Shown here: positions 39,143-56,617 of the stretch, in pieces | Numbering within the stretch: the first letter of the stretch is position 1 | Layout of the letters: each line of letters begins with the position of its first letter | The notes under the pieces: generated by a model | Database searches by the model: none | What the model saw: only the letters and a program-made list of their open reading frames with translations | What the model was told of the DNA's origin: nothing | Source: an uncultured Gammaproteobacteria bacterium | Lineage (GTDB): Bacteria > Pseudomonadota > Gammaproteobacteria > Ga0077536 | NCBI GenBank assembly: GCA_938082545.1 | Contig: CALKCL010000002.1 | Location: 62,001-126,000 of the forward strand | DNA length: 64,000 nucleotides | Direction of reading: 5' to 3' | Program-made: the position numbers and the translations under genes

Positions 39143-40348
39143 ATGACCGACGAACAATTAGATCTCCGACCTTTAGCTGGCTTAAGAGTAATAGAAATTG
39201 GACAACTGCTTGCGGGTCCTTTTACCGGAACAATTCTTGGTTACTTTGGCGCGGAAGTTATCAAAGTAGAACCTCCTGAAGTGGGCGATCCGATCAGAGG
39301 TTGGAGAGAAGTGCGAGACGGTACTTCACTTTGGTGGGCAAGTCTGTCTCGTAATAAAAAATGTATTACTCTAGATCTCAAAACTCCAAAAGGACAAGAG
39401 GTATTAAAAAAACTCGCTAATACCGCTGATGTCTTCGTCGAAAATTTCAGACCTGGAACAATGGAAAAATGGGGTATAGAGCCAGACACTTTTAAAGAAG
39501 AAAATCCTGGGCTTATATATGCCCGAATTTCAGGTTATGGTCAAACTGGCCCAGCGGCATCTAAAGCTGGATTTGCATCTGTATGCGAGGCATTCGGTGG
39601 CTTTCGTTACGTTAACGGGTTTCCTGGTGAAGTACCTGTCCGGCCAAATATTAGTATCGGAGATACACTGGCTGGTATTCATGCTGCACTCGGGGTCTTG
39701 CTAGCTTACATAGGTCGACAAAAAAGTGGTCAAGGACAAGTGGTTGATGTAGCTATCTTTGAAGGCCTATTTAACTTATTGGAGGCCGTGATTCCTGAAT
39801 ATAGTGGAGCTGGCATCGTCAGAGAACCTTCTGGCACAGCAATCACTGGAATCGTTCCCACGAATACGCACCGCTGCAAAGATGGCAAGCATATTGTCAT
39901 CGGAGCTAATACCAACTCGATGTTCAAACGATTGGCAAAGGCCATGGATAAGCCAGAGATGGGCGACGATTCGAGATTTACTGAGAATACTGATCGAGTT
40001 ACCAACCAAAAAGAGATTGAGACGATCATTGAATCATGGACCTTGCAGATAAACTCAAAAGAAGCCTTAGAGGCACTTGACGTTGCCGGTGTAGCTGCCG
40101 GACCAATTTACAGCGTAAAAGATATGTTTGAAGATGAACAGTATCGCGCTCGTGAACTCTTCCAAGAAGTGTCCATAGATGGAAAGCCCCTAACTATTCC
40201 CGCGATAATACCGCGACTCTCGAGAACACCTGGGAAAACCGACTTTCCAGGATCGAAATTAGGTGCGCATAACGAGGAAGTGCTGCAAGATATACTAGGA
40301 TATACAGAGCAAGAAATTATAAATTTGAAAGCTGAGAAAATTATCTGA
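39143..40348 (+). CDS. Class III CoA-transferase (CaiB/BaiF family)
   Basis: Family III CoA-transferase of 401 residues; these move CoA between carboxylic acids through an aspartyl-CoA intermediate. The catalytic aspartate should be D174 in ISIGDTLAGIHAALG. GQLLAGPFTGTILGYFGAEVIKVE, SLSRNKKCITLDLK and VFVENFRPGTMEKWG are standard family segments. The fold is a cytoplasmic interlocked dimer. Substrates cannot be inferred: relatives act on carnitine, formyl, succinyl, mesaconyl or bile-acid CoAs. A 105-bp gap containing the terminator precedes it; an AhpD-like gene follows after 80 bp. Confidence 0.93.
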   Translation: MTDEQLDLRPLAGLRVIEIGQLLAGPFTGTILGYFGAEVIKVEPPEVGDPIRGWREVRDGTSLWWASLSRNKKCITLDLKTPKGQEVLKKLANTADVFVENFRPGTMEKWGIEPDTFKEENPGLIYARISGYGQTGPAASKAGFASVCEAFGGFRYVNGFPGEVPVRPNISIGDTLAGIHAALGVLLAYIGRQKSGQGQVVDVAIFEGLFNLLEAVIPEYSGAGIVREPSGTAITGIVPTNTHRCKDGKHIVIGANTNSMFKRLAKAMDKPEMGDDSRFTENTDRVTNQKEIETIIESWTLQINSKEALEALDVAGVAAGPIYSVKDMFEDEQYRARELFQEVSIDGKPLTIPAIIPRLSRTPGKTDFPGSKLGAHNEEVLQDILGYTEQEIINLKAEKII

Positions 40349-46107: not shown

Positions 46108-46893
46108 CTAATCATTTCTCCAAGAAGGTAGCTCTTTAAGTAAAAAGCTGTCAATCCCCTCCAAAGCTTCTCCGCTAAGACGTTTCTCTGAATGTCCTGC
46201 AATCAGTTTATCCAGTAATTTCGTATTTTTGTCGGACAGTGCCAAAAACCCGTCCTTGCTGACAGCGCTTGTTTTCGGGCCCGTGGATAAAATTTTACAG
46301 ATTATTTTATCCACATGCTGATCCAAATTTCCAGGCTCGACCAGCTCGCTAACTAAACCGATTTCTGAGGCAACTTCTCCCGAGAAATCTTCTCCAGTAA
46401 GCGCGTAACGTTTAGCATGACGTATTCCAATAGCATCAATTAGTTGCGGGAAAATAATATTTGCCACCATCCCAAAACGCGCCTCACTAATGGCAAAAAC
46501 TGATGTCGTCTCAGCTAATACAATATCGCAAGATGCCACAATACCGCAGCCGCCTCCCATACATGCACCCTGCACTAAAGCAATAGTGACTGTCTTCAAA
46601 TTACGCAGCTGCCAAAAAGTCTCAGCTGTCTTTTTTGAGACTCTCTGATTTTCAGCAGCACTACATAGGCTTACCTCTTTCAGCCATTGAATGTCTGCTC
46701 CGGCCTGAAAATGGCGACCGGCTCCTCTAATCAAAATTATCCTCACGTGATTATCAAGATCTAATCTTGATATACAATCACTAAACTGATCAAGAAAATC
46801 TTCGTTATAAGCATTATTAAAACTGGAACGATTGAACATTATCGTTGCTACTCCAGATACTGTGATATCAGTTATCGAAACCAAATTACCCAT
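46108..46893 (-). CDS. Enoyl-CoA hydratase/isomerase family protein
   Basis: Crotonase-fold protein of 261 residues. The oxyanion-hole regions GRHFQAGADI and ACMGGGCGIVASCD are present, and SEARFG/AETTSVF supply acidic residues near the usual catalytic positions. It should act on acyl-CoA thioesters: hydratase, isomerase or hydrolase activity cannot be told apart here. The ATG at 46893 is chosen; a GTG at 46908 sits directly on an AAGGA box and is too close. It follows the TetR gene by 18 bases and is probably in the same transcript, hence under the same control as the carboxylase-like pair. Confidence 0.88.
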   Translation of the reverse strand: MGNLVSITDITVSGVATIMFNRSSFNNAYNEDFLDQFSDCISRLDLDNHVRIILIRGAGRHFQAGADIQWLKEVSLCSAAENQRVSKKTAETFWQLRNLKTVTIALVQGACMGGGCGIVASCDIVLAETTSVFAISEARFGMVANIIFPQLIDAIGIRHAKRYALTGEDFSGEVASEIGLVSELVEPGNLDQHVDKIICKILSTGPKTSAVSKDGFLALSDKNTKLLDKLIAGHSEKRLSGEALEGIDSFLLKELPSWRND

Positions 46894-46911
46894 ATACGTA
46901 CAACTCACTCC

Positions 46912-47550
46912 TTAAGTAGAACCTTTACATAAACGGCAAAATCCAGCCGATAAAAATGGAACCATACGCAAATGTATCTCAGATAAATCAGAGCCATGGC
47001 ATGTGTCTCCAGAGAGCAAATCTATGCGACCAGTCTGTGCAAATGTCATGGTCATAGCACCAAGAAGAAAATGAAAGCTCCAATAGACATCCTCCGTCTT
47101 AGCAACAGGGAACCTCACTCGTACGCGACGGATAAACTCAATCGCTACCGGATCGAACTCTGCTGACATAATCTCGCTTGTCCATCGAGGTGAGTTCGCA
47201 ATCTGCGCGACTACACGAGCATAGTCTCTCCAGCCCTCACCTCCAAATAAACTTCGCCGAAGAAACGGACCAATGAAAGCCTCTATCAAATCTTCGATTT
47301 CTGCCCTATCGGAAAGCGCGTTCAAAGCTTCCATCCTCTCGTTGTTGAGGATTACAGAGCGTCGCTGAATAACAGCACGAAAAAGTCCTAACTTAGAACC
47401 AAAATGGTAATTTGGGAGAGCCAACTCTACTCCAGCAAGCTTAGTAATCATCCTCAAAGACACTCCGTCATAGCCGCTTTCGGCAAACAGGGCCTCAGCT
47501 GAGTCTAAGATGCGCTGAGGTGTTGAAGCTTTGTCAGTTTTTTTGTTCAC
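46912..47550 (-). CDS. TetR/AcrR family transcriptional regulator
   Basis: TetR-type repressor of 212 residues. The helix-turn-helix is at about residues 28-50 (VSLRMITKLAGVELALPNYHFGSK, with the core ITKLAGVELALPNYHF). The C-terminal ligand domain contains a Pfam TetR_C-like segment with conserved ARVVAQIANSPRW, resembling fatty-acyl or CoA-ester-responsive regulators (low certainty). It diverges from the hyuA-like gene; the intergenic region has a 42-bp palindrome that is the obvious operator. It probably autoregulates and controls both the enoyl-CoA hydratase and the carboxylase-like genes. Confidence 0.92.
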   Translation of the reverse strand: MNKKTDKASTPQRILDSAEALFAESGYDGVSLRMITKLAGVELALPNYHFGSKLGLFRAVIQRRSVILNNERMEALNALSDRAEIEDLIEAFIGPFLRRSLFGGEGWRDYARVVAQIANSPRWTSEIMSAEFDPVAIEFIRRVRVRFPVAKTEDVYWSFHFLLGAMTMTFAQTGRIDLLSGDTCHGSDLSEIHLRMVPFLSAGFCRLCKGST

Positions 47551-47572: not shown

Positions 47573-47614
47573 ATTTACGCTATATTTGAACGTGCGTTCA
47601 AATATAGCGTAAAT
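47573..47614. promoter_or_regulatory. 42-bp palindromic operator between TetR and hyuA-like genes
   Basis: Two perfect 20-base inverted arms (ATTTACGCTATATTTGAACG and its complement) flank a TG spacer. The core TTGAACG-TG-CGTTCAA is typical in size and symmetry for a TetR dimer site, and the full length could seat two dimers. On each strand TTGAAC followed by 17 bases and GTAAAT forms a poor -35/-10 pair that would be covered by the bound repressor. The divergent genes start 22 bases (TetR side) and 43 bases (hyuA side) away. Confidence 0.88.
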
Positions 47615-47657: not shown

Positions 47658-49763
47658 TTGAGCTCTTATATTTGCGGTCTAGATATAGGCGGAACTTTTA
47701 CAGATTGCGTGCTCATAAACGAACATGGCGATCTCACAATCGCAAAATCACCTTCTACACCATCTGATTTTGCAGTTGGTGTATTGAATGCGATAGAAAG
47801 AGCTGCCGTAAAAATTGGCCTCTCAACCGCGGATCTTCTTGACTCAATTAACGTGTTAGCTCACGGAACTACAGTAGGAACTAACACCATAATTCAAAGA
47901 CGGGGAGCTAAAGTTGGACTCATTACGACAAAAGGCCATAACGATGTTATTCATATTATGCGAGGCTCTCGAGGGCTTGCAGGCCAAGATATCAAGTTAA
48001 TTGTCCATATCCCTGAGAGCAGTAAGCCTAAACCTCTGATTCCTAAAAGATTGATTCGCGGAGTGTCTGAACGAGTCGACTGCTTTGGGAAAATTGTCGT
48101 TGAGTTAAATGAACTAGAAGTAGAAACCGCAATCAGAGAACTTCAAGATGCAGGGTGCGAAGCTTTAGCCGTCTGCTGTCTTTGGTCTTTTCTCGAACCG
48201 AAACATGAGCAAAGAATCAAGGCCATCGCTCATGAAATAGCTCCAGAAATGTACGTTACGTGCTCTACCGATTTAGCCCCAAAATGGGGTGAGTATGAAC
48301 GTACTACCGCTGTCGCTCTTAATGCATACATTGGACCTATTACTGTTGGGTACATTACTCGCTTAGATAAGCAGCTAAAACAAATGGGTTATAAACCTCC
48401 ACTGCAGATAACACATTGCGCTGGAGGGACAATTACTGTGCCAAAAGCACAAGAGGCTCCTTTACTAACCCTCGATTCAGGACCTGTATCAGGAGTCACA
48501 GGATCTGTTTTCCTAGGTGGCTTGATGGGCTACCCCAACGTAATTACCACTGATCTCGGCGGCACCTCCTTTGATGTCGGTGTGATACACAATGGCAGTC
48601 CTGTAGTCTCTTATAAAAGCACAGTTAATCAGTATGAATATTTTCTACCCAAAGTTGATGTCCAAACATTAGGTACTGGAGGTGGTAGTAAAGTTTGGAT
48701 AGATCAGACAACAAATTCTCTTCGGGTAGGTCCCAATAGTGCTGGAGCGGATCCAGGACCGGTATGCTATGGGAAAGGAGGAACGACTCCGACAACGACT
48801 GACGCTGATCTTGTTCTAGGCTATCTCGATCCCAATAACTTTGCAGCAGGAACGATTAAACTGGACCATCAAGCGGCAACTAAGGCTCTACAAAAGATAG
48901 CCGATGAACTCGAAATGACACTTTTTGAGCTTGCCAGCGGCGTTGCTACTATCGCTGAATTCCAGATGGCAGATCTAATTCGTAAAGTGACCGTACAAAA
49001 AGGCCTAGACCCACGAGAATTTGTCGTGTTCGCTTTTGGTGGCGCAGGTCCTGTGCATATGGGCGTCGCCGCAAGGGAGCTAGGAGTTGACAAGGTCATA
49101 GTCCCACAAGGTGATACTGCAGCGGTCTGGTGCGCATTTGGAGCAGCCTCTGCAGATATTCTCCATGTTGGAGAACAAGCGAAAATTATTGCATCTCCAT
49201 TCGATTTAACCGAAATCAATAAGATTCTGAACGGATTGTCTTTGAAAGGCAGCCAACAGTTGCAGAGCGATGGTATAGAACAGGCGAAGCATCAGTTTCA
49301 ATATTCGTTAGACATGAGACATCGTGGACAAATTAATGAAGTCGAAGTGTTTATAGATAGTGGGATACTCGATGAGGAAGTACTTGGCGCGTTGAGAGAG
49401 AAGTTCGTAGCTCGTTACGAACAACTATACGGCCGTGGCTCTGCAATGCACGATGCTCGACTAGAAATCGTAACGGCGAGGTGCCGCTCATCTGCTCTGT
49501 CACTAAAACCTAAACTTAAAGAGTTTTCTTTAACATTAGAGCCTCTCTCCGCGGACGCTAAAACTGGGACAAGGGAGATCTATTGGGCTGAAAAAAAATC
49601 TGTCGAAACAACCCCTATATTTAATGGTTATCTTTTTAAGCCTGGAAACAGTGCTGAAGGGCCTTGTGTTGTCGAAACTGAAACCACGTCGATCGTTGTA
49701 CATCCCAGACAGGAAATCAGCATGGACACTTTTAGAAACTTTGTGATCAACCCCAATACCTGA
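47658..49763 (+). CDS. hyuA: Hydantoinase A/acetone-carboxylase beta-like ATPase subunit
   Basis: Actin-fold ATPase subunit of 701 residues. GLDIGGTFTDCVL near residue 7 and TTDLGGTSFDVGVI near 300 are the two phosphate loops; AHGTTVGTNTIIQR and DPGPVCYGKGGT are family segments. Relatives are N-methylhydantoinase A, 5-oxoprolinase and the beta subunit of acetone/acetophenone carboxylases, all of which activate an amide or ketone using ATP. Length near 700 agrees with the carboxylases or the oxoprolinase A part. The start is TTG with AGGGGAA upstream. It is followed 11 bases later by the B partner. Confidence 0.9.
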   Translation: MSSYICGLDIGGTFTDCVLINEHGDLTIAKSPSTPSDFAVGVLNAIERAAVKIGLSTADLLDSINVLAHGTTVGTNTIIQRRGAKVGLITTKGHNDVIHIMRGSRGLAGQDIKLIVHIPESSKPKPLIPKRLIRGVSERVDCFGKIVVELNELEVETAIRELQDAGCEALAVCCLWSFLEPKHEQRIKAIAHEIAPEMYVTCSTDLAPKWGEYERTTAVALNAYIGPITVGYITRLDKQLKQMGYKPPLQITHCAGGTITVPKAQEAPLLTLDSGPVSGVTGSVFLGGLMGYPNVITTDLGGTSFDVGVIHNGSPVVSYKSTVNQYEYFLPKVDVQTLGTGGGSKVWIDQTTNSLRVGPNSAGADPGPVCYGKGGTTPTTTDADLVLGYLDPNNFAAGTIKLDHQAATKALQKIADELEMTLFELASGVATIAEFQMADLIRKVTVQKGLDPREFVVFAFGGAGPVHMGVAARELGVDKVIVPQGDTAAVWCAFGAASADILHVGEQAKIIASPFDLTEINKILNGLSLKGSQQLQSDGIEQAKHQFQYSLDMRHRGQINEVEVFIDSGILDEEVLGALREKFVARYEQLYGRGSAMHDARLEIVTARCRSSALSLKPKLKEFSLTLEPLSADAKTGTREIYWAEKKSVETTPIFNGYLFKPGNSAEGPCVVETETTSIVVHPRQEISMDTFRNFVINPNT

Positions 49764-49774
49764 GGTTCTTTCAG

Positions 49775-52054
49775 ATGCCAAGAATAAGCGAAATGACTGA
49801 CGTAGACTTCAATGGAATTGAAAACCCCTACGTGCCACCGAAAATTCTGAAAATAGCCTCAAAACTAAAGCTTCATCAGACCTGGGACAAAGAAGTTGAC
49901 CCGGTAACTTATGAAGTTATCCGTCATAATCTTTGGCAAATTAATGAAGAGCATGGGGCAACGATACAGCGCCTGTCGGGGTCTCCTGTCGCAATGTACG
50001 CTCTCGACTTAAACCCATCTATCCTGACTGAAGATGCAGAGTTCGTATACTTTGGCCCTTATATGCAGTACATGTCTGGTGTGACAGATACCCAAGTAAA
50101 ATGGACTTTGGAATACCGAAGTGAGAATCCTGGGATAAATGAAGGAGACATGTTTATAGCGAATGATCCGTGGGTAGGGGCGGCTCATCAACAAGATGTG
50201 ATGCTACTTTGTCCAGTTTTTTGGGAAGGAGAGCTTTTCTGTTGGATAACAAACTGTCTTCACCAATACGACATCGGAGGGATAACTCCCGGCAGCTTCT
50301 GTCCATCTGCGGAATCAGTTTACGAAGAAGGACTAATGCTTCCACCTCTCAAGATAATTGAAAACTACGAAGTCAGAAAAGATATTGAAGCCGTATATCT
50401 AAGGTCGTCCAGAAAGCCTGATTTAGTAGCGTTAGACTTCCGAGCCCAAATTGCAGGGAACACAACTGCGCGTGACCGAATTTTAGAGCTCATCAAGCGC
50501 TATGGAGCAGCCACACTGAAAGGCGTAATGAAAAGGATTATAGACAACTCGGAAAAATCCTACTTAGATAAAATGTCACGATTGCCCGACGGAGAATGGT
50601 CTGACCGAACGTATATAGAGGCTTGCCGCCCGGGCGATAGGCGAACTCATCGCGTCATGCTAGGTCTTCGTAAAGAAGGCAATAAACTTATCTTTAACAA
50701 TGACGGTTCTGCACCTCAGGAAGGGGCTATGAATGCAACTTACTCGGGTTGGCGTGGTTCCGTAATGGTTGCTGTGAATGAATTACTTTGCTGGGATCAG
50801 TATTTTGCATGTGGCGGTGCTTTGCGGCACATTGAGTTCGACCCGACGCCGGGAACGCTCAATTGTGCAGACTTCCCATCTTCCGTCTCAACTGCTCCGA
50901 TACAAGCTATGGAAATTTCACTATATCCCGCCTATAACGTCATCTCCAAAATGATTTACCCCGATCCGATCATGCGAAAAGATATTATGTGTATCGGCGG
51001 CACCAGCCAATGGCCTGCTACTTTATTCAGAGGGATCGATCAGTGGGGTGAAAAGTATGGCTATCTGCTCATTGATCCTATTGGCGGCGCCATAGGTGCA
51101 TTTACTATGGCAGATGGCATAAACACTGGTGGACAAGCAAGAACGCCTATCTGTCAATTGCCTAATGTGGAGCATACTGAACAAAATTTTCCTATCTTGT
51201 TCCTTTACCGTAAAGAGCTCAGTGACTCGGGTGGAGCAGGGAAATACAGAGGTGGGCTTTCTGCTGAAAGCTGCTTCATCCCTCATAACACTGAATTCGT
51301 TACGCAGGACACTCTCTCTTCTGGTAATGCAATACCTACTTCACCTGGCCTGATGGGAGGATATCCATCAACTACTAATGCCTATACATTCGTCAAAGAC
51401 AGCAATATTTTTGACTGTATGGCGTTGTCACAGATGCCAAATGATACAGACGAATTGTTAGGGAATTCCGTAACATTGCAGCTTCGGGAACAAAACTTCA
51501 CCCAAGATCCTAAAGATGTGTACGCCGTCAGATGGAGTGGTGGTGGTGGATTCGGTGACCCTTTTGATAGAGCACCAGAGGATATAGAGGATGACTTGGA
51601 GTCGCTTGCTATAACCGAAAAATCTGCGGAAACACTTTACGGTGCAATCTTAGGCAAAGATGGCCATGTTGATATTGAAAGGACACGCGAACATAGAGCC
51701 AAAATAAGGAAATCTAGAGTTACTGAAATTAAGAAATCAAGTAGGACGGGTCAGTTGTTATCTGAAAATTCACACTCAATCAACATTATGCGAGATGACG
51801 CCGGCACCTACTGGGCTTGCGCAAAATGTGACTTCGAATTAGGTGATATCTCAGAGAACTATAAAGAACATTGCGTGACCGAGAATCAAAGCATCGCAGT
51901 CTCCAATCCTTTGATTGGCGACGAAGCTAGATTCATCGATAACGCGGTTGAATTTAGGCAATTCTATTGCTGCCAGTGCGGCTGCCTTCTAGACAACGAA
52001 ATCGCAATCGCTGAAGATCCTTTACTCCACGATTCAAGGCATCAGCTCAGTTAA
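49775..52054 (+). CDS. hyuB: Hydantoinase B/acetone-carboxylase alpha-like subunit fused to a zinc domain
   Basis: Subunit of 759 residues. Residues ~35-640 are the HyuB domain (EVDPVTYEVIRHNLW, FIANDPWVGAAHQQDV, DSGGAGKYRGG, RWSGGGGFGDPF). The last ~90 residues form a Cys-rich module with CAKC and CCQCGC, and SENYKEHC in between, recalling the gamma subunit of acetone carboxylase (ENWK and EFYCPGC motifs by memory), which is a separate protein in known enzymes. The pair could therefore be an ATP-dependent carboxylase of a ketone, or a hydantoinase/oxoprolinase. No biotin or separate gamma subunit gene is adjacent. It converges on the cytochrome c' gene 2 bases away. Confidence 0.9.
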   Translation: MPRISEMTDVDFNGIENPYVPPKILKIASKLKLHQTWDKEVDPVTYEVIRHNLWQINEEHGATIQRLSGSPVAMYALDLNPSILTEDAEFVYFGPYMQYMSGVTDTQVKWTLEYRSENPGINEGDMFIANDPWVGAAHQQDVMLLCPVFWEGELFCWITNCLHQYDIGGITPGSFCPSAESVYEEGLMLPPLKIIENYEVRKDIEAVYLRSSRKPDLVALDFRAQIAGNTTARDRILELIKRYGAATLKGVMKRIIDNSEKSYLDKMSRLPDGEWSDRTYIEACRPGDRRTHRVMLGLRKEGNKLIFNNDGSAPQEGAMNATYSGWRGSVMVAVNELLCWDQYFACGGALRHIEFDPTPGTLNCADFPSSVSTAPIQAMEISLYPAYNVISKMIYPDPIMRKDIMCIGGTSQWPATLFRGIDQWGEKYGYLLIDPIGGAIGAFTMADGINTGGQARTPICQLPNVEHTEQNFPILFLYRKELSDSGGAGKYRGGLSAESCFIPHNTEFVTQDTLSSGNAIPTSPGLMGGYPSTTNAYTFVKDSNIFDCMALSQMPNDTDELLGNSVTLQLREQNFTQDPKDVYAVRWSGGGGFGDPFDRAPEDIEDDLESLAITEKSAETLYGAILGKDGHVDIERTREHRAKIRKSRVTEIKKSSRTGQLLSENSHSINIMRDDAGTYWACAKCDFELGDISENYKEHCVTENQSIAVSNPLIGDEARFIDNAVEFRQFYCCQCGCLLDNEIAIAEDPLLHDSRHQLS

Positions 52055-52056
52055 GA

Positions 52057-52512
52057 CTAATGCTTGACGCGATACTCATCGTGGCAGCCTTTGCACATCT
52101 TTACAGTAACACCAAATTGTCGCTTCATGGCCGCCTTGTCTCCTTCACCAGCAACTATGGCCAACTTCTGAGATGCAGATGCCAAATCACTCATTCTTTT
52201 TTGAAAGTCAGGCAAGTTCTCCCATAACTCAGACCGAGCTTCAGACTTCGCATCCTTCGTAGACACGTCAAAACCTTCAATCACCATCGGTGCCAACTGC
52301 GCTACTCGGTCTGCCAAAAAAGCAAAGCGCTCTTTATCAAACGGCACCTTCTCTTGAACCATGGCACCCATAGGCCCGATATTCCAACCTAGCGCCATCA
52401 ATACACCTTGGCGATAATGAACTGCATCATCCGGCTTAGGCGCGGCTTGTGCCCCTCCAAAAAAAACTAACAAGACACATAGAGTTACAACGACGTTCAA
52501 TACTTTTTTCAC
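52057..52512 (-). CDS. Cytochrome c' family protein
   Basis: Periplasmic c-type cytochrome of 151 residues. A signal peptide (residues 1-23, ending AQA) is followed by a four-helix-bundle sequence with a single heme motif C140-K-G-C143-H144 near the C-terminus, the hallmark of cytochrome c'. These proteins bind NO and CO and may protect against NO. Its start is 11 bases after the cytochrome b561 stop, so the two are co-transcribed, as in several marine bacteria. Confidence 0.92.
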   Translation of the reverse strand: MKKVLNVVVTLCVLLVFFGGAQAAPKPDDAVHYRQGVLMALGWNIGPMGAMVQEKVPFDKERFAFLADRVAQLAPMVIEGFDVSTKDAKSEARSELWENLPDFQKRMSDLASASQKLAIVAGEGDKAAMKRQFGVTVKMCKGCHDEYRVKH

Positions 52513-52523
52513 TTACATCCCCT

Positions 52524-53195
52524 TCATAAGTTGAATCTAAAATTAACTATTACACAAATAATCACAATACTCAGTAACAAAGTTGCAAAAGGCAGGAAAA
52601 AACCGTGCCGGATCTTACTTGCATTTTTATCTCTCAAATATTTATAGCCACTCAGCATCGCACCTACCAAGTGCTCGCGCTTCCAAACTCGATAAAAAAA
52701 TATCGCCAAAACATGGATGATGATCAAAGCAGTCAAATTATTGAAATTCGTATGATGTACCCACGTCAGCCAATCGCTGGTGAGCTTAGTCACATTGGCA
52801 TAAAGCGGCCCTTCATTAAATAAGTCGTCATTGGCGAACAAGCCCGTGGCAAACTGCACAACCAAAAGTAAAAGAAACGCTATGACTACCCAGCCACCAA
52901 TAGGGTTGTGCGTTAAGTAATGTTCTGGCTGCCTGCTTTTTAGATCTAAAATAGCACGAACAACTATTCTTGGACCTCTAATAAACTCAGAGAACTTGGC
53001 AGACTGTGATCCCCAAACCCCCCAAAACAGACGAAAAAAAACAAGAATACCAATGCCGTAACCACAAAACATATGGTATTTCATCAATAGACCGCCTTCT
53101 CGCGCTGTCCACCAAGCGGACAGAATCAAAACAATTAATAACCAATGAAAGCTCCTGATCCATATGTCCCACACATAAACTTTTTCATTGCTCAT
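52524..53195 (-). CDS. Cytochrome b561 family membrane protein
   Basis: Four-helix membrane cytochrome b of 223 residues. Heme histidines are probably in IRSFHWLLIVLI, EHYLTHNPIGGW, WVHHTNFNNL and ALIIIHVLAIFF. The bacterial b561 proteins pass electrons from quinol to periplasmic acceptors, here likely the adjacent cytochrome c'. I start at the ATG at 53195 with GAGG upstream; the frame is open to 53276, but those 27 residues lack family character and overlap the regulatory gap of the amidase gene. Confidence 0.9.
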   Translation of the reverse strand: MSNEKVYVWDIWIRSFHWLLIVLILSAWWTAREGGLLMKYHMFCGYGIGILVFFRLFWGVWGSQSAKFSEFIRGPRIVVRAILDLKSRQPEHYLTHNPIGGWVVIAFLLLLVVQFATGLFANDDLFNEGPLYANVTKLTSDWLTWVHHTNFNNLTALIIIHVLAIFFYRVWKREHLVGAMLSGYKYLRDKNASKIRHGFFLPFATLLLSIVIICVIVNFRFNL

Positions 53196-53383
53196 TTCAA
53201 ACCTCAGGCTTTTAGTACGAGAAGCATAATTGCTGCGACTAGCTGCCGCAACGCAAGGTGCCGTATATTGAACCACATGGGGCTGCGAAATGTTTTTCTT
53301 ATTCTTGGTAAAAGTGCTATAAAAAGAGCCAAGCAGACAGAAAACCTATCTCATATCTAAAAAGAGCACTCTCGGGGACAACA

Positions 53384-54895
53384 ATGAAAATCAAAAGACC
53401 TACTAGCGAGCAAATTGACTTAATAGCCCAGCAATTCCGACTAAATCTCGAATTCGAGGATATTGAGTCATTCAAGGCATTAATGGAGGGGCCAATTGCT
53501 TCTTACGAACGGCTAGATGAACTTTGCGAGCCTAAGCCAGAAGTAAAATACCCTAGAAGCCCTGGCTATCGACCTGATAGTGATGAAAATCCGAATAACG
53601 CATGGTATTACAAAACATCAATAAAGGGCGCGGCTCACGGTAAGCTCAGTGGAAAAACCGTCGCTATAAAAGATAACGTCTGTGTCGCTGGAGTCCCGAT
53701 GATGAACGGCTGTTCAGCACTCGAAGGGTATATTCCAGATATAGATGCAACAGTAGTGACAAGGATCTTAGATGCGGGGGGTGAAATAGCAGGGAAATCT
53801 GTATGCGAAAACTTATGCTTTTCCGGAGGAAGTCACACTACTGCCGCGGGGCCAGTGACTAACCCTCATAATCCAGAATACACCACCGGTGGCTCTTCAA
53901 GCGGAAGTGCAGCGCTGGTCGCGTCTGGTAGTGTTAATATGGCTATTGGCGGAGATCAAGGCGGTTCAATACGTATGCCAGCTAGCTGGTGTGGGGTGTA
54001 TGGCTTAAAACCTACGCATGGGCTAGTGCCTTATACGGGCGCATTTCCAATTGAGATAACCCTTGACCATTTAGGGCCCATAACTAACAACGTAACGGAC
54101 TGTGCTCTGCTACTCGAAGTTATTGCTGGGGACGATGGAATGGATCCGCGACAACGTAATTTAAAAGTAGACAAATATACGGAAGCACTTGTCACCGACA
54201 TACATGAACTCAAAATTGGCATTGTGTCTGAAGGTTTCAATTGGGAAGGTCAATCCGAACAAGATGTGGATACAACAGTGCGTGCCGCGGCCAGTCAACT
54301 AGAAAAGCTTGGAGCTCACGTAGAGGAAGTGTCTATTCCTATGCATAAGGACGGGATCCATATCTGGAATGCAATCGCTATTGAAGGTGCCAATTCCTTG
54401 ATGATAAAAGGCAATAGCATGGGAACGAATTGGAAGGGCTATTACAACACTGGGTTGCTCGATTCATTTGCGAGAGGTCGTATCACTAGAGCTGACGATC
54501 TGTCAGAAACCACCAAACTGGTAATGTTAATGGGCCAGTATATGGATGAGCAGTACCATGGTCGCTATTATGCTAAGGCGCAAAATCTTGCCACTGCTCT
54601 CAAAGCAGCATACGACTCAGCTTTTGAAAAATATGACCTACTATTGATGCCTACTCAACCAATGAAAGCGACAAAAATACCTGAAAAATCTTGTTCCAGA
54701 GAAGATTATGTCGCTCGTGCTTTGGAAATGGTAAATAATACCGCTCCTTTTGACGTCACCGGACACCCGGCCATGACTATTCCAGTAGGCAAGTCAAAGG
54801 GACTCCCTGTAGGTATGATGCTTATCGGGAAAAGCTTTGATGAGAGTACAATACTAAAAGCAGCTTATGCATACGAACAAGCGACAGCAATATAA
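53384..54895 (+). CDS. Amidase (amidase signature family)
   Basis: Hydrolyses amides to acids and ammonia. The Ser-Ser-Lys triad is K96 (VAIKDNV), S171 (GGSSSGS) and S195 ([11 protein letters not shown]); these positions equal those I recall for the Rhodococcus N-771 amidase that is co-encoded with a nitrile hydratase. The 503 residues fit that group. ATG at 53384 preceded by GGGGACAAC. The gene opens a unit with nitrile hydratase genes 14 bases later, so the likely job is converting amides made by nitrile hydratase. Confidence 0.95.
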
Positions 54896-54909
54896 AAGGA
54901 CTAAATGAT

Positions 54910-55548
54910 ATGAGCGATCATGACCATAATCACGACCACGCTAATAGTCGACCATTGACCGATGTAGAGCTAAGGGTCAAAGCGTTGGAACAAGTTCTCA
55001 CGGAAAAAGGCCTGGTAGATCCTTCAGCTGTCGATGCACTCATAGAAACTTATGAGACTAAAGTCGGCCCCCATAACGGCGCTCAGGTAGTGGCTCGAGC
55101 GTGGACTGATCCAGAATACAAAAAAAGACTACTGATCAATGGGACTGAAGCTATCGCAGAATTGGGTTATTCGGGTATACAAGGTGAAGACATGGTCGTC
55201 ATTGAAAATACTTCAAACATCCATAATGTCTTGGTCTGCACCTTATGCTCTTGTTATCCATGGCCAACCTTAGGTTTACCTCCAGTCTGGTATAAATCAG
55301 CTCCCTATCGGTCTCGAGTTGTCAGCCAGCCTCGCGAGGTCTTAAAAGAGTTTGGTGTAGAGTTAGATGAAAACACAGAGGTCCGAGTATGGGATAGTAC
55401 AGCTGAACTGCGTTACATGGTTTTACCAGAGCGTCCTCAAGGAACAGAACTATTGAGTGAAAACGAACTCGCTTCCCTAGTTACTAGAGACTCGATGATA
55501 GGGGTAGAGCTGCTTAAAAAATCCGAATCTCGAGGGGCATCGGAATGA
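54910..55548 (+). CDS. nthA: Cobalt-type nitrile hydratase alpha subunit
   Basis: Catalytic subunit that hydrates nitriles to amides. The 212 residues match NHase alpha. The metal claw is C110-T-L-C113-S-C115; threonine in the second position (CTLCSC) indicates cobalt rather than iron, which has CSLCSC. Two of the cysteines are normally oxidised to sulfenate and sulfinate. [21 protein letters not shown] is also characteristic. The N-terminus is His-rich (five His in the first 10 residues), perhaps helping to gather metal. The ATG is followed 635 bases later by the beta subunit in a 4-base overlap. Confidence 0.97.
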
Positions 55549-56204
55549 ATGGTGCACATGATCTAGGTGGCATGCATGGCTTTGGGGACGTCAACCCTGA
55601 ACAGAATGAACCTGTTTTTCATGCAGAATGGGAAAAACGAGTTTTAGGACTATTTGTTCCCGTCTCTGCTGTGGGACCATTTTGTGTCGACGAGTTTCGA
55701 GCATGTATTGAAAGAATGGGGGCAACAAACTACCTCTCAACTAGTTATTATGAACATTGGTTACATGCGTTCGAAACGATAGCTGTTGAGAAAGGTGTTG
55801 TAACAAAGGAGGAGTTGAAAGCTGGAAAATCTTTCACTCCCCGAGGAGATTCCACGCCACCAGTCTTAGCCAAAGATGTACCTTACATTTCGTCTCATGG
55901 CTCTAGCGCCAGGATAGACGAGGTGATTGCGCCAAAATTCAAGGCCGGAAATCTAGTCATGGTGAACAACAATCATCCAGAAAATCATACGCGCTGTCCG
56001 CGATATGCAAGAGACAAACTAGGTTCTATAGAGAAAGATAATGGAGTCTTTGTTTTCCCCGATACGGCCGCCCATGGCCAAGGAGACAGCCCACAGCACT
56101 GCTATAGCGTTCGATTCGATGCACAAGAATTGTGGGGAGGTGGGGCCTCTGAGAAAGATTCCGTATACATAGACCTATGGGATGATTACCTTACTTTAGC
56201 CTAG
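55545..56204 (+). CDS. nthB: Nitrile hydratase beta subunit
   Basis: Non-catalytic subunit (219 residues) that completes the active site of the alpha-beta NHase. [14 protein letters not shown] is the nearly invariant NHase beta N-terminus. The conserved arginines that bond to the oxidised cysteines should be in FRACIERM and [12 protein letters not shown]. The C-terminal [12 protein letters not shown] and [10 protein letters not shown] are typical of the SH3-like beta domain. ATGA overlap with the alpha stop indicates coupled translation and equal stoichiometry. Confidence 0.97.
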
Positions 56205-56257
56205 AAGTCTGATAAGAAATTTCAAACCCATCCCTAACATATAAGTGTAAGCGTACT

Positions 56258-56617
56258 ATGGAAAAATCACCTTCAGAACTTGTCGCACTAGTTGATGCCC
56301 CTCTTGACGAAAACAATGAGGTGATCTTCGCCAACCCCTGGGAAGCAAGAGCCTTTGCTTTAGTAGTCCAAATGCATCAAGAAAAGCGGTATACCTGGAC
56401 TGAATGGGCCAATCAGCTTAGTCACGAAATTAAAAAGTCCAATACCCTCAATGAGAAAGAGGAAGACTACTACCTTCTATGGCTAAAAGCCGCCGAGGAA
56501 CTCGTGGTAACAAAAGGTTTGTGCGCGAAGGATGAACTATCTTCAAGAAAAGAATCGTTACTGCATACCCAAGAAGCACTCAAAGACACAGCTGATCGTG
56601 ACCACTCTACCGTATAA
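56258..56617 (+). CDS. Nitrile hydratase accessory protein
   Basis: Protein of 119 residues that resembles the N-terminal domain of the beta subunit (FANPWEARAFALVVQMHQ, FTWTEWANQL-like YTWTEWANQLS, YYLLWLKAAEELVV). In cobalt NHases such proteins (P14K/NhlE type) carry alpha subunit for metal insertion and cysteine oxidation by self-subunit swapping. That function is inferred from family and position 54 bases after nthB. No cobalt transporter (NhlF) is in the window. The C-terminal ~20 residues are charged and probably disordered. Confidence 0.88.
   Translation: MEKSPSELVALVDAPLDENNEVIFANPWEARAFALVVQMHQEKRYTWTEWANQLSHEIKKSNTLNEKEEDYYLLWLKAAEELVVTKGLCAKDELSSRKESLLHTQEALKDTADRDHSTV

Follow-up and report, generated by a model that had tools for sequence, protein, structure and literature searches.

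We conclude that two adjacent genes in a 64,000-nucleotide stretch of DNA from an uncultured Gammaproteobacteria bacterium (contig CALKCL010000002.1 of assembly GCA_938082545.1, positions 62,001 to 126,000; the whole stretch is called the window here) carry the alpha, beta, and gamma parts of a ketone carboxylase-like enzyme. The first gene encodes HyuA, an ATP-binding alpha subunit, and the second encodes a HyuB (beta) subunit with a C-terminal tail. That this tail is a homologue of the gamma subunit of acetone and acetophenone carboxylases is confirmed, far beyond chance. By phylogeny, the pair is a separate branch near acetophenone carboxylase (Apc) and acetone carboxylase (Acx), outside the hydantoinases that have no gamma. 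With moderate confidence, we propose that HyuA and HyuB-gamma make up an ATP-dependent carboxylase that is condensed to alpha/beta-gamma and has only one kinase subunit.

Results

A gamma-subunit module is fused to HyuB

The stop codon of HyuA is separated from the start of the HyuB-gamma open reading frame (ORF) by a gap of 11 bp. The coding features of the pair are as follows.

47658..49763, plus strand: HyuA, ATP-binding alpha subunit, 701 amino acids (aa), TTG start.
49775-52054, plus strand: HyuB-gamma ORF, 759 aa, ATG start.
49775..51751, plus strand: HyuB (beta) part, residues 1-659, comprising the catalytic subunit with its metal site and a linker.
50006..50263, plus strand: codons of the putative metal ligands D78, H138, D141, and H163.
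51752..52051, plus strand: fused gamma-subunit module, residues 660-759, with the Acetone_carb_G match at 671-755.
51818..51979, plus strand: codons of the four zinc-ligand cysteines C682, C685, C732, and C735.

The initial annotation of this DNA had pointed to the motifs CAKC, NYKEHC, and CCQCGC in the C-terminal ~90 residues, had likened the tail to the gamma subunit of acetone carboxylase, and had proposed that this normally separate subunit is here fused to HyuB. All three motifs are present (residues 682-685, 695-700, and 732-737, respectively), and a single 759-aa ORF indeed contains both domains. The likeness to gamma was upheld by profile, sequence, and fold comparisons. Acetone_carb_G (PF08882) matches residues 671-755 with 38.8 bits, against a curated cutoff of 21 (E value, 1.2e-9), and the tail searched alone scores 41.9 bits (E value, 1.3e-10). 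When the last 100 residues were compared with PDB sequences by phmmer, the top match was 5l9w_C, the small subunit of acetophenone carboxylase (E value, 2.7e-5); by sequence, the tail is nearer to the gamma of acetophenone carboxylase than to that of acetone carboxylase. An AlphaFold2 model of residues 660-759, built from 23 sequences (mean predicted local distance difference test score [pLDDT], 86.5), matched only gamma subunits in the PDB at an E value of ≤0.001, namely, 5svc_C, 5m45_C, 5svb_C, 5l9w_C, and 5svb_F (E values, 2.5e-5 to 3.8e-5; probability, 1.0; query template modeling score, 0.69-0.76). The next match has an E value of 0.67. Thus, the tail passed the structure prediction that had been suggested as a check.

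Conservation of the putative zinc site is nearly complete. C682 and C685 occur in 64/64 fused homologues, and C732 and C735 occur in 63/64, the remaining row being gapped there; all four are also unchanged in an alignment of 54 proteins, and they line up with the four cysteines of the Apc gamma encoded by the same genome. In Apc gamma, C22, C25, C75, and C78 are the likely zinc site (PMC5214803). All features of the gamma family are therefore present, i.e., a PF08882 score above the cutoff, four cysteines in two CxxC-type pairs, and the gamma fold. A chance or generic extension of the C terminus, with no relation to gamma, is an extremely improbable reading of the tail: its identity to Apc gamma in the structure search is low (24%) and most of the cysteines are lost in one fused relative (on a Rhodococcus opacus plasmid), but its only significant matches in profile, PDB-sequence, and fold searches are gamma subunits, which rules out a generic HyuB extension, its zinc ligands are conserved among fused homologues, and haloarchaea have the same module as a separate gene annotated as acetone carboxylase subunit gamma. 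In the exceptional relative, encoded on R. opacus plasmid pCP105 (L197:7992-10301), both cysteines of the first CxxC pair and one of the second pair have been lost. Because most cysteines are gone, the zinc site seems to be dispensable in that protein.

The HyuA and HyuB parts have the family's ATP and metal sites

HyuA has the Pfam domains Hydant_A_N, Hydantoinase_A, and Hydant_A_C and the ASKHA motifs DIGGTFTD, DLGGTSFD, and GADPGP. Its top match among PDB sequences is 5l9w_B (Apc alpha; 434 bits), followed by CapA (415 bits); among NCBIfam models, CapA ranks first (558.6 bits, short of the cutoff of 1000). The segment SERVDCFG fits the fingerprint of the alpha subunit that contacts beta (fingerprint from PMC5214803). 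In the HyuB part, Hydantoinase_B matches residues 42-596 (E value, 7.5e-101), and the top PDB sequence is 5l9w_A (ApcD; 193 bits); the NCBIfam ApcD equivalog model gives 217 bits, below its cutoff of 1500. The putative metal ligands D78, H138, D141, and H163 are unchanged across 54/54 aligned fused proteins. They align with D65/H123/D126/H148 of Apc beta and with D41/H99/D102/H124 of CapB (equivalences drawn from PMC5214803 and PMC8453981). The ATP motifs of HyuA, together with these ligands, place the pair in the hydantoinase/ketone carboxylase superfamily. A model of the full-length HyuB-gamma protein (pLDDT, 82.9; predicted template modeling score, 0.86; tail blocks mostly >90) has 5l9w_A (Apc beta) as its top PDB match (E value, 7.1e-38) and acetone carboxylase alpha as its second, with caprolactamase lower.

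The pair forms a branch of its own near Apc and Acx

The tail columns were left out of the HyuB-core trees. In a first tree of 50 rows, the fused clade of the window has support of 100/100, and it groups with Apc and Acx at 99/94. A second tree, of 35 rows with plasmid sequences added, places the split forms of haloarchaea as sisters of the fused clade (100/98 and 100/99). In it, gamma-less hydantoinase, caprolactamase, and N-methylhydantoinase make up a clade supported at 100/99, with all gamma-bearing systems outside it. The deep branch order is less certain, with an inner node at 63/13, many long branches, and a midpoint root only. The phylogeny that the initial annotation had called for thus sets the fused proteins apart from the gamma-less hydantoinases. 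Fused pairs, Hyd, Acx, and Apc are also separate groups in the HyuA tree. In the trees of both subunits, the pair lies on a branch separate from Acx, and in neither does it group with CapAB or N-methylhydantoinase.

Among solved structures, the beta and gamma subunits of Apc (ApcABCDE of Aromatoleum aromaticum, 5L9W) come closest in sequence to the HyuB part and the tail, respectively; shared features are the top fold match to Apc beta, the Asp-His-Asp-His metal site, the four-cysteine zinc site, and the alpha-type fingerprint of HyuA. However, Apc has alpha and alpha prime subunits, a separate gamma, and epsilon, encoded by 4-5 genes, whereas the window locus has only HyuA and HyuB-gamma, i.e., one alpha and a gamma fused to beta. 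Acx (AcxABC of Xanthobacter autotrophicus, 5M45 and 5SVB) likewise consists of alpha, beta, and gamma with a single kinase subunit, its gamma is encoded downstream of beta, and the fold of the tail matches AcxC. In Acx, though, gamma is a separate gene, Glu89 occupies a position where the fused family has Asp (D78), and the tree branch is a different one. Plain membership in Apc or Acx is ruled out by tree position, NCBIfam cutoffs, and gene content. HydAB, CapAB (6YRA), and N-methylhydantoinase (7HK5) have two genes, the HyuA and HyuB folds, and the metal ligands in common with the window pair. In contrast, the Hyd, Cap, and oxoprolinase types are without gamma and form a separate supported clade in both subunit trees; the window pair also has two genes, but gamma is present as a fused domain.

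Nine HyuB genes and three gamma modules are present in the genome, which is 2.03 Mb in size and 88.5% complete. One locus (L142, G000:C8:8000-24000) is an Apc-type operon of alpha prime, gamma, alpha, beta, a 237-aa protein, a coenzyme A (CoA) ligase, and a thiolase, and its beta scores 936 bits to 5l9w_A. Another (L141) is an Acx-like trio, and the six gamma-less HyuBs group with CapB and N-methylhydantoinase in the HyuB tree. The fused pair is the third gamma-bearing system in one cell and is therefore not the sole candidate ketone carboxylase of this organism. All nine HyuB paralogues are encoded in a small, 2-Mb genome.

The fusion is common in its clade and has split relatives in haloarchaea

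A pattern scan of ~85,000 genomes yielded 130 relatives, of which the best 80 were kept. HyuA lies directly upstream in 69/80 fused loci. By hand count, 28/36 genomes of the window's own order have a low-scoring gamma match within a frame of ~750 aa or longer, and two more have shorter, possibly truncated frames. The fusion is common in its clade rather than a one-off, and its occurrence is wide among bacteria and haloarchaea. At an E value of ≤1e-6, 0/298 other genomes drawn from the phylum carry the fused type, so its distribution is patchy. Fused forms also occur in plasmid records of Mycobacterium branderi, Rhodococcus, and the haloarchaeon Halorientalis. Plasmids of Haloterrigena, Haladaptatus, and Natronosalvus have adjacent genes for HyuA, HyuB, and a separate gamma of 93-99 aa, in the order A-B-gamma, and HyuB identity for these split forms is about 40-42%.

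In the trees, the haloarchaeal three-gene forms are the closest unfused relatives of the fused clade; both have HyuA upstream and the same kind of gamma module, which in haloarchaea is a separate gene directly after beta. Since beta and gamma are adjacent, separate genes in these closest unfused relatives, the tail probably arose by gene fusion. The simplest history is probably an alpha-beta-gamma gene trio whose adjacent beta and gamma genes then fused. A second set of fusions (L131, L140, and Rhodococcus pseudokoreensis) has a branch of its own in the tree, and fusion may therefore have occurred more than once. This second, independent-looking branch is represented by L131:1257-5746, L140:2530-6815, and L200:5887-10136; the cores of the L131 and L140 fusions are nearer to hydantoinases by PDB score, and a thiolase, CoA transferase, and ligase or a beta-keto-acid cleavage enzyme (BKACE) adjoins members of the branch.

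One apparent, high-scoring fusion, a 770-aa open frame in G018:C1, was rejected as a stop-to-stop frame around a separate gamma. Four loci (L069, L070, L073, and L090) encode fused HyuB-gamma without HyuA directly upstream despite 5.6-7 kb of upstream DNA. Relatives of the locus are also found in public contigs of metagenome-assembled genomes titled Klebsiella pneumoniae (L045, L055, L062, and L083), names that look wrong. A literature search found no description of the fused form, although domain databases may list the architecture. Searches on haloarchaeal acetone carboxylase and on PF08882 gave nothing relevant, and no characterized member of the haloarchaeal three-gene relatives was found in the literature searched.

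Gene neighborhoods of relatives

Neighboring genes are diverse, and no single gene neighborhood common to the whole clade was found. A BKACE gene adjoins the pair in three members of the window's own clade, L110, L114, and L118 (E value, <1e-99), and also in L140. Operons in L128 and L136 consist of an acyl-CoA ligase, HyuA, HyuB-gamma, and both CoA transferase subunits; the L132 operon has HyuB-gamma and CoA transferase subunits, with an acyl-CoA ligase within 5 kb. A thiolase, a CoA transferase, and a ligase are near the pair in L131, two short-chain dehydrogenases/reductases and an acyl-CoA ligase surround it in R. opacus, and a CoA transferase and a crotonase are near it in R. pseudokoreensis. 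The haloarchaeal genes of Haloterrigena have an AMP-binding enzyme and a crotonase nearby. Such neighbors offer clues to what the enzyme makes.

Betaproteobacterial-type fused loci (L100, L103, L112, and L094) lie in large catabolic clusters whose members vary by locus and include a three-subunit molybdenum hydroxylase, a flavin adenine dinucleotide (FAD) monooxygenase, a 3-hydroxyisobutyrate-dehydrogenase-like protein, TctC, and branched-chain-type ATP-binding cassette transporters. Aminotransferases and uptake systems also occur in betaproteobacterial loci.

A candidate operator and a crotonase lie upstream of the pair

Three further features lie upstream of HyuA in the window.

46108..46908, minus strand: enoyl-CoA hydratase/isomerase (crotonase), adjoining tetR; ECH_1, E value of 9e-37.
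46912..47550, minus strand: TetR-type regulator with a PsrA-like C-terminal domain, divergent from HyuA; TetR_N and TetR_C_30.
47573..47614, no strand assigned: perfect 42-bp palindrome between tetR and hyuA, candidate operator, with 20-nt arms and a 2-nt center.

The best NCBIfam model of the regulator is PsrA (102.8 bits, below the cutoff of 300). The palindrome at 47573-47614 reads ATTTACGCTATATTTGAACG-TG-CGTTCAAATATAGCGTAAAT. In L044 and L048, both arms are changed and the symmetry is still perfect over 20 nt per arm. A palindrome core, TTTGAACG-NN-CGTTCAAA, is kept in L051 and L052, and L049 has a shorter core, TTGAACGATCGTTCAA; the TTGAACG-type core is kept in all three. Because the changed arms of L044 and L048 remain fully complementary, symmetry seems to be selected beyond the length of a usual operator core. 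The initial annotation had linked the TetR gene to the pair, and this link is backed by the conserved operator-like site; conservation of the palindrome despite the arm changes is good evidence for the proposed TetR control of hyuAB.

The best NCBIfam model of the crotonase is gamma-carboxygeranoyl-CoA hydratase (189.8 bits, below the cutoff of 426). Crotonases adjoin the pair in several close relatives, and the crotonase is probably functionally linked to it.

Downstream of the pair, genes for cytochrome c prime and cytochrome b561 (52057-53276) converge on hyuB, with stop codons 2 bp apart, an arrangement retained in several relatives. The block at 53384-56617 by inspection resembles an amidase and a nitrile hydratase, accompanied by a small accessory protein; a 212-aa protein in it has the motif CTLCSC, and its first genes are in the same order in the close relatives L041, L042, and L044. 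About 7 kb from the pair, an ORF at 39143-40348 looks by inspection like a family III (CaiB/BaiF) CoA transferase, and a homologue of it adjoins fused HyuB in L072 and L090.

Discussion

The case for a carboxylase draws on observed domain identities, the fusion, conservation of the metal and zinc ligands, tree position, and gene neighbors. We infer the reaction and the class of substrate, that one kinase site serves both phosphorylations, and that TetR exerts control at the palindrome. Overall, the earlier interpretation is partly supported. Its condensed two-gene carboxylase stands insofar as alpha, beta, and gamma parts occur in two genes and the trees, fold, and neighbors indicate an affinity with carboxylases; catalysis, which we infer, is plausible and better supported than before.

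In the characterized enzymes, an alpha-type subunit with the ASKHA fold phosphorylates the ketone enol and bicarbonate is activated to carboxyphosphate; in the proposal for acetone carboxylase, the HyuB-type subunit holds the metal at which the C-C bond is formed. Two alpha-type subunits serve the two ATP in Apc, whereas the single one of Acx works stepwise, and gamma is described as structural in both (PMC5214803, PMC5543143). For the window pair, HyuA would phosphorylate a carbonyl compound to give an enol phosphate, and bicarbonate would be converted to carboxyphosphate at the same HyuA site, with no second alpha subunit, as in acetone carboxylase. From there, the intermediates would move to the HyuB metal site (D78, H138, D141, and H163), where CO2 would be joined to the enolate to form a beta-keto acid, which may then be activated with CoA or cleaved by enzymes encoded nearby or at unlinked loci. 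The fused gamma module would serve as a zinc-stapled brace that wraps beta, like the separate gamma in Apc. As gamma is fused to beta, one gamma per beta would be guaranteed. We predict Acx-like sequential activation on an Apc-like scaffold, because there is one HyuA and it has the beta-contacting-alpha fingerprint SERVDCFG.

Several points weigh against a carboxylase. The authors of the Apc structure found no residue signature that separates carboxylases from hydrolases (PMC5214803). In characterized enzymes, gamma is regarded as a structural subunit remote from the active site (PMC5214803), and its presence alone is therefore no proof of carboxylation. There is no acyl-CoA ligase or thiolase next to the window pair, and the literature search found no assay of any member of the fused branch. 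A BKACE or CoA transferase occurs within 5 kb in 8/80 fused and 0/46 gamma-less loci (Fisher p, 0.027), but this value is indicative only, because some loci were already known when the test was framed, the loci are related to one another, and part of the fused set had been picked for variety of lineage; in the wider set that includes ligases and thiolases, the difference is not significant (17/80 versus 4/46; p, 0.084). Betaproteobacterial members (~65% identity) have molybdenum hydroxylases, FAD monooxygenases, and a polysaccharide-deacetylase-fold protein nearby, and thus cyclic-amide breakdown also fits these clusters.

The strongest alternative, which we consider unlikely, is accordingly an ATP-dependent cyclic-amide hydrolase with a structural zinc tail, in which HyuA would phosphorylate the carbonyl of a lactam or hydantoin and HyuB would hydrolyze it, with no addition of CO2. 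The betaproteobacterial neighbors named above, together with aminotransferases, are a mix typical of N-heterocycle catabolism. However, neighbors of this type are not enriched in fused loci (26/80 versus 11/46 gamma-less loci; p, 0.42), whereas BKACE and CoA transferases are linked to fused and not to gamma-less loci. The scores of HyuA against CapA and Apc alpha are nearly equal, with CapA its top NCBIfam model, the metal ligands are common to hydrolases and carboxylases (PMC8453981), and a two-gene hydAB order is the hydantoinase pattern (PMC5214803). Yet both subunit trees exclude the pair from the gamma-less hydantoinase/caprolactamase clade, and no Hyd with gamma is reported in the Apc paper (PMC5214803).

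Less probable still is a different ATP-dependent reaction, such as one that carboxylates not a simple ketone but an amide, a CoA thioester, or an unsaturated carbonyl compound and is tied to the adjacent crotonase. This crotonase and the PsrA-type regulator point to acyl-CoA metabolism, and the crotonase's best, subthreshold model would imply a carboxylated acyl-CoA as its substrate. Furthermore, the fused branch is as deep as Apc and Acx, and its substrate may therefore differ from theirs. Against this, the position of the crotonase is not fixed across the clade, in which neighbors vary widely, and no carboxylase of this family is known to us to act on a CoA thioester.

Returning to the condensed carboxylase, we tentatively suggest that the fused clade and its split haloarchaeal sisters could represent a fourth branch of ATP-dependent carboxylases, spread over several proteobacterial classes, actinobacteria, and haloarchaea, in whose fused members two polypeptides would carry out both phosphorylations and C-C bond formation on a class of ketones that neither Apc nor Acx uses. 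Two types of biotin-free ketone carboxylase have been studied. In the sources consulted, we met no version more compact than the beta-gamma fusion with its one kinase subunit. With this form, one could ask directly if carboxylation requires gamma and if a single ATP site is enough for both activations. The genes are annotated solely as hydantoinase B/oxoprolinase family proteins, and the name of a hydrolase may thus conceal a branch of CO2-adding enzymes.

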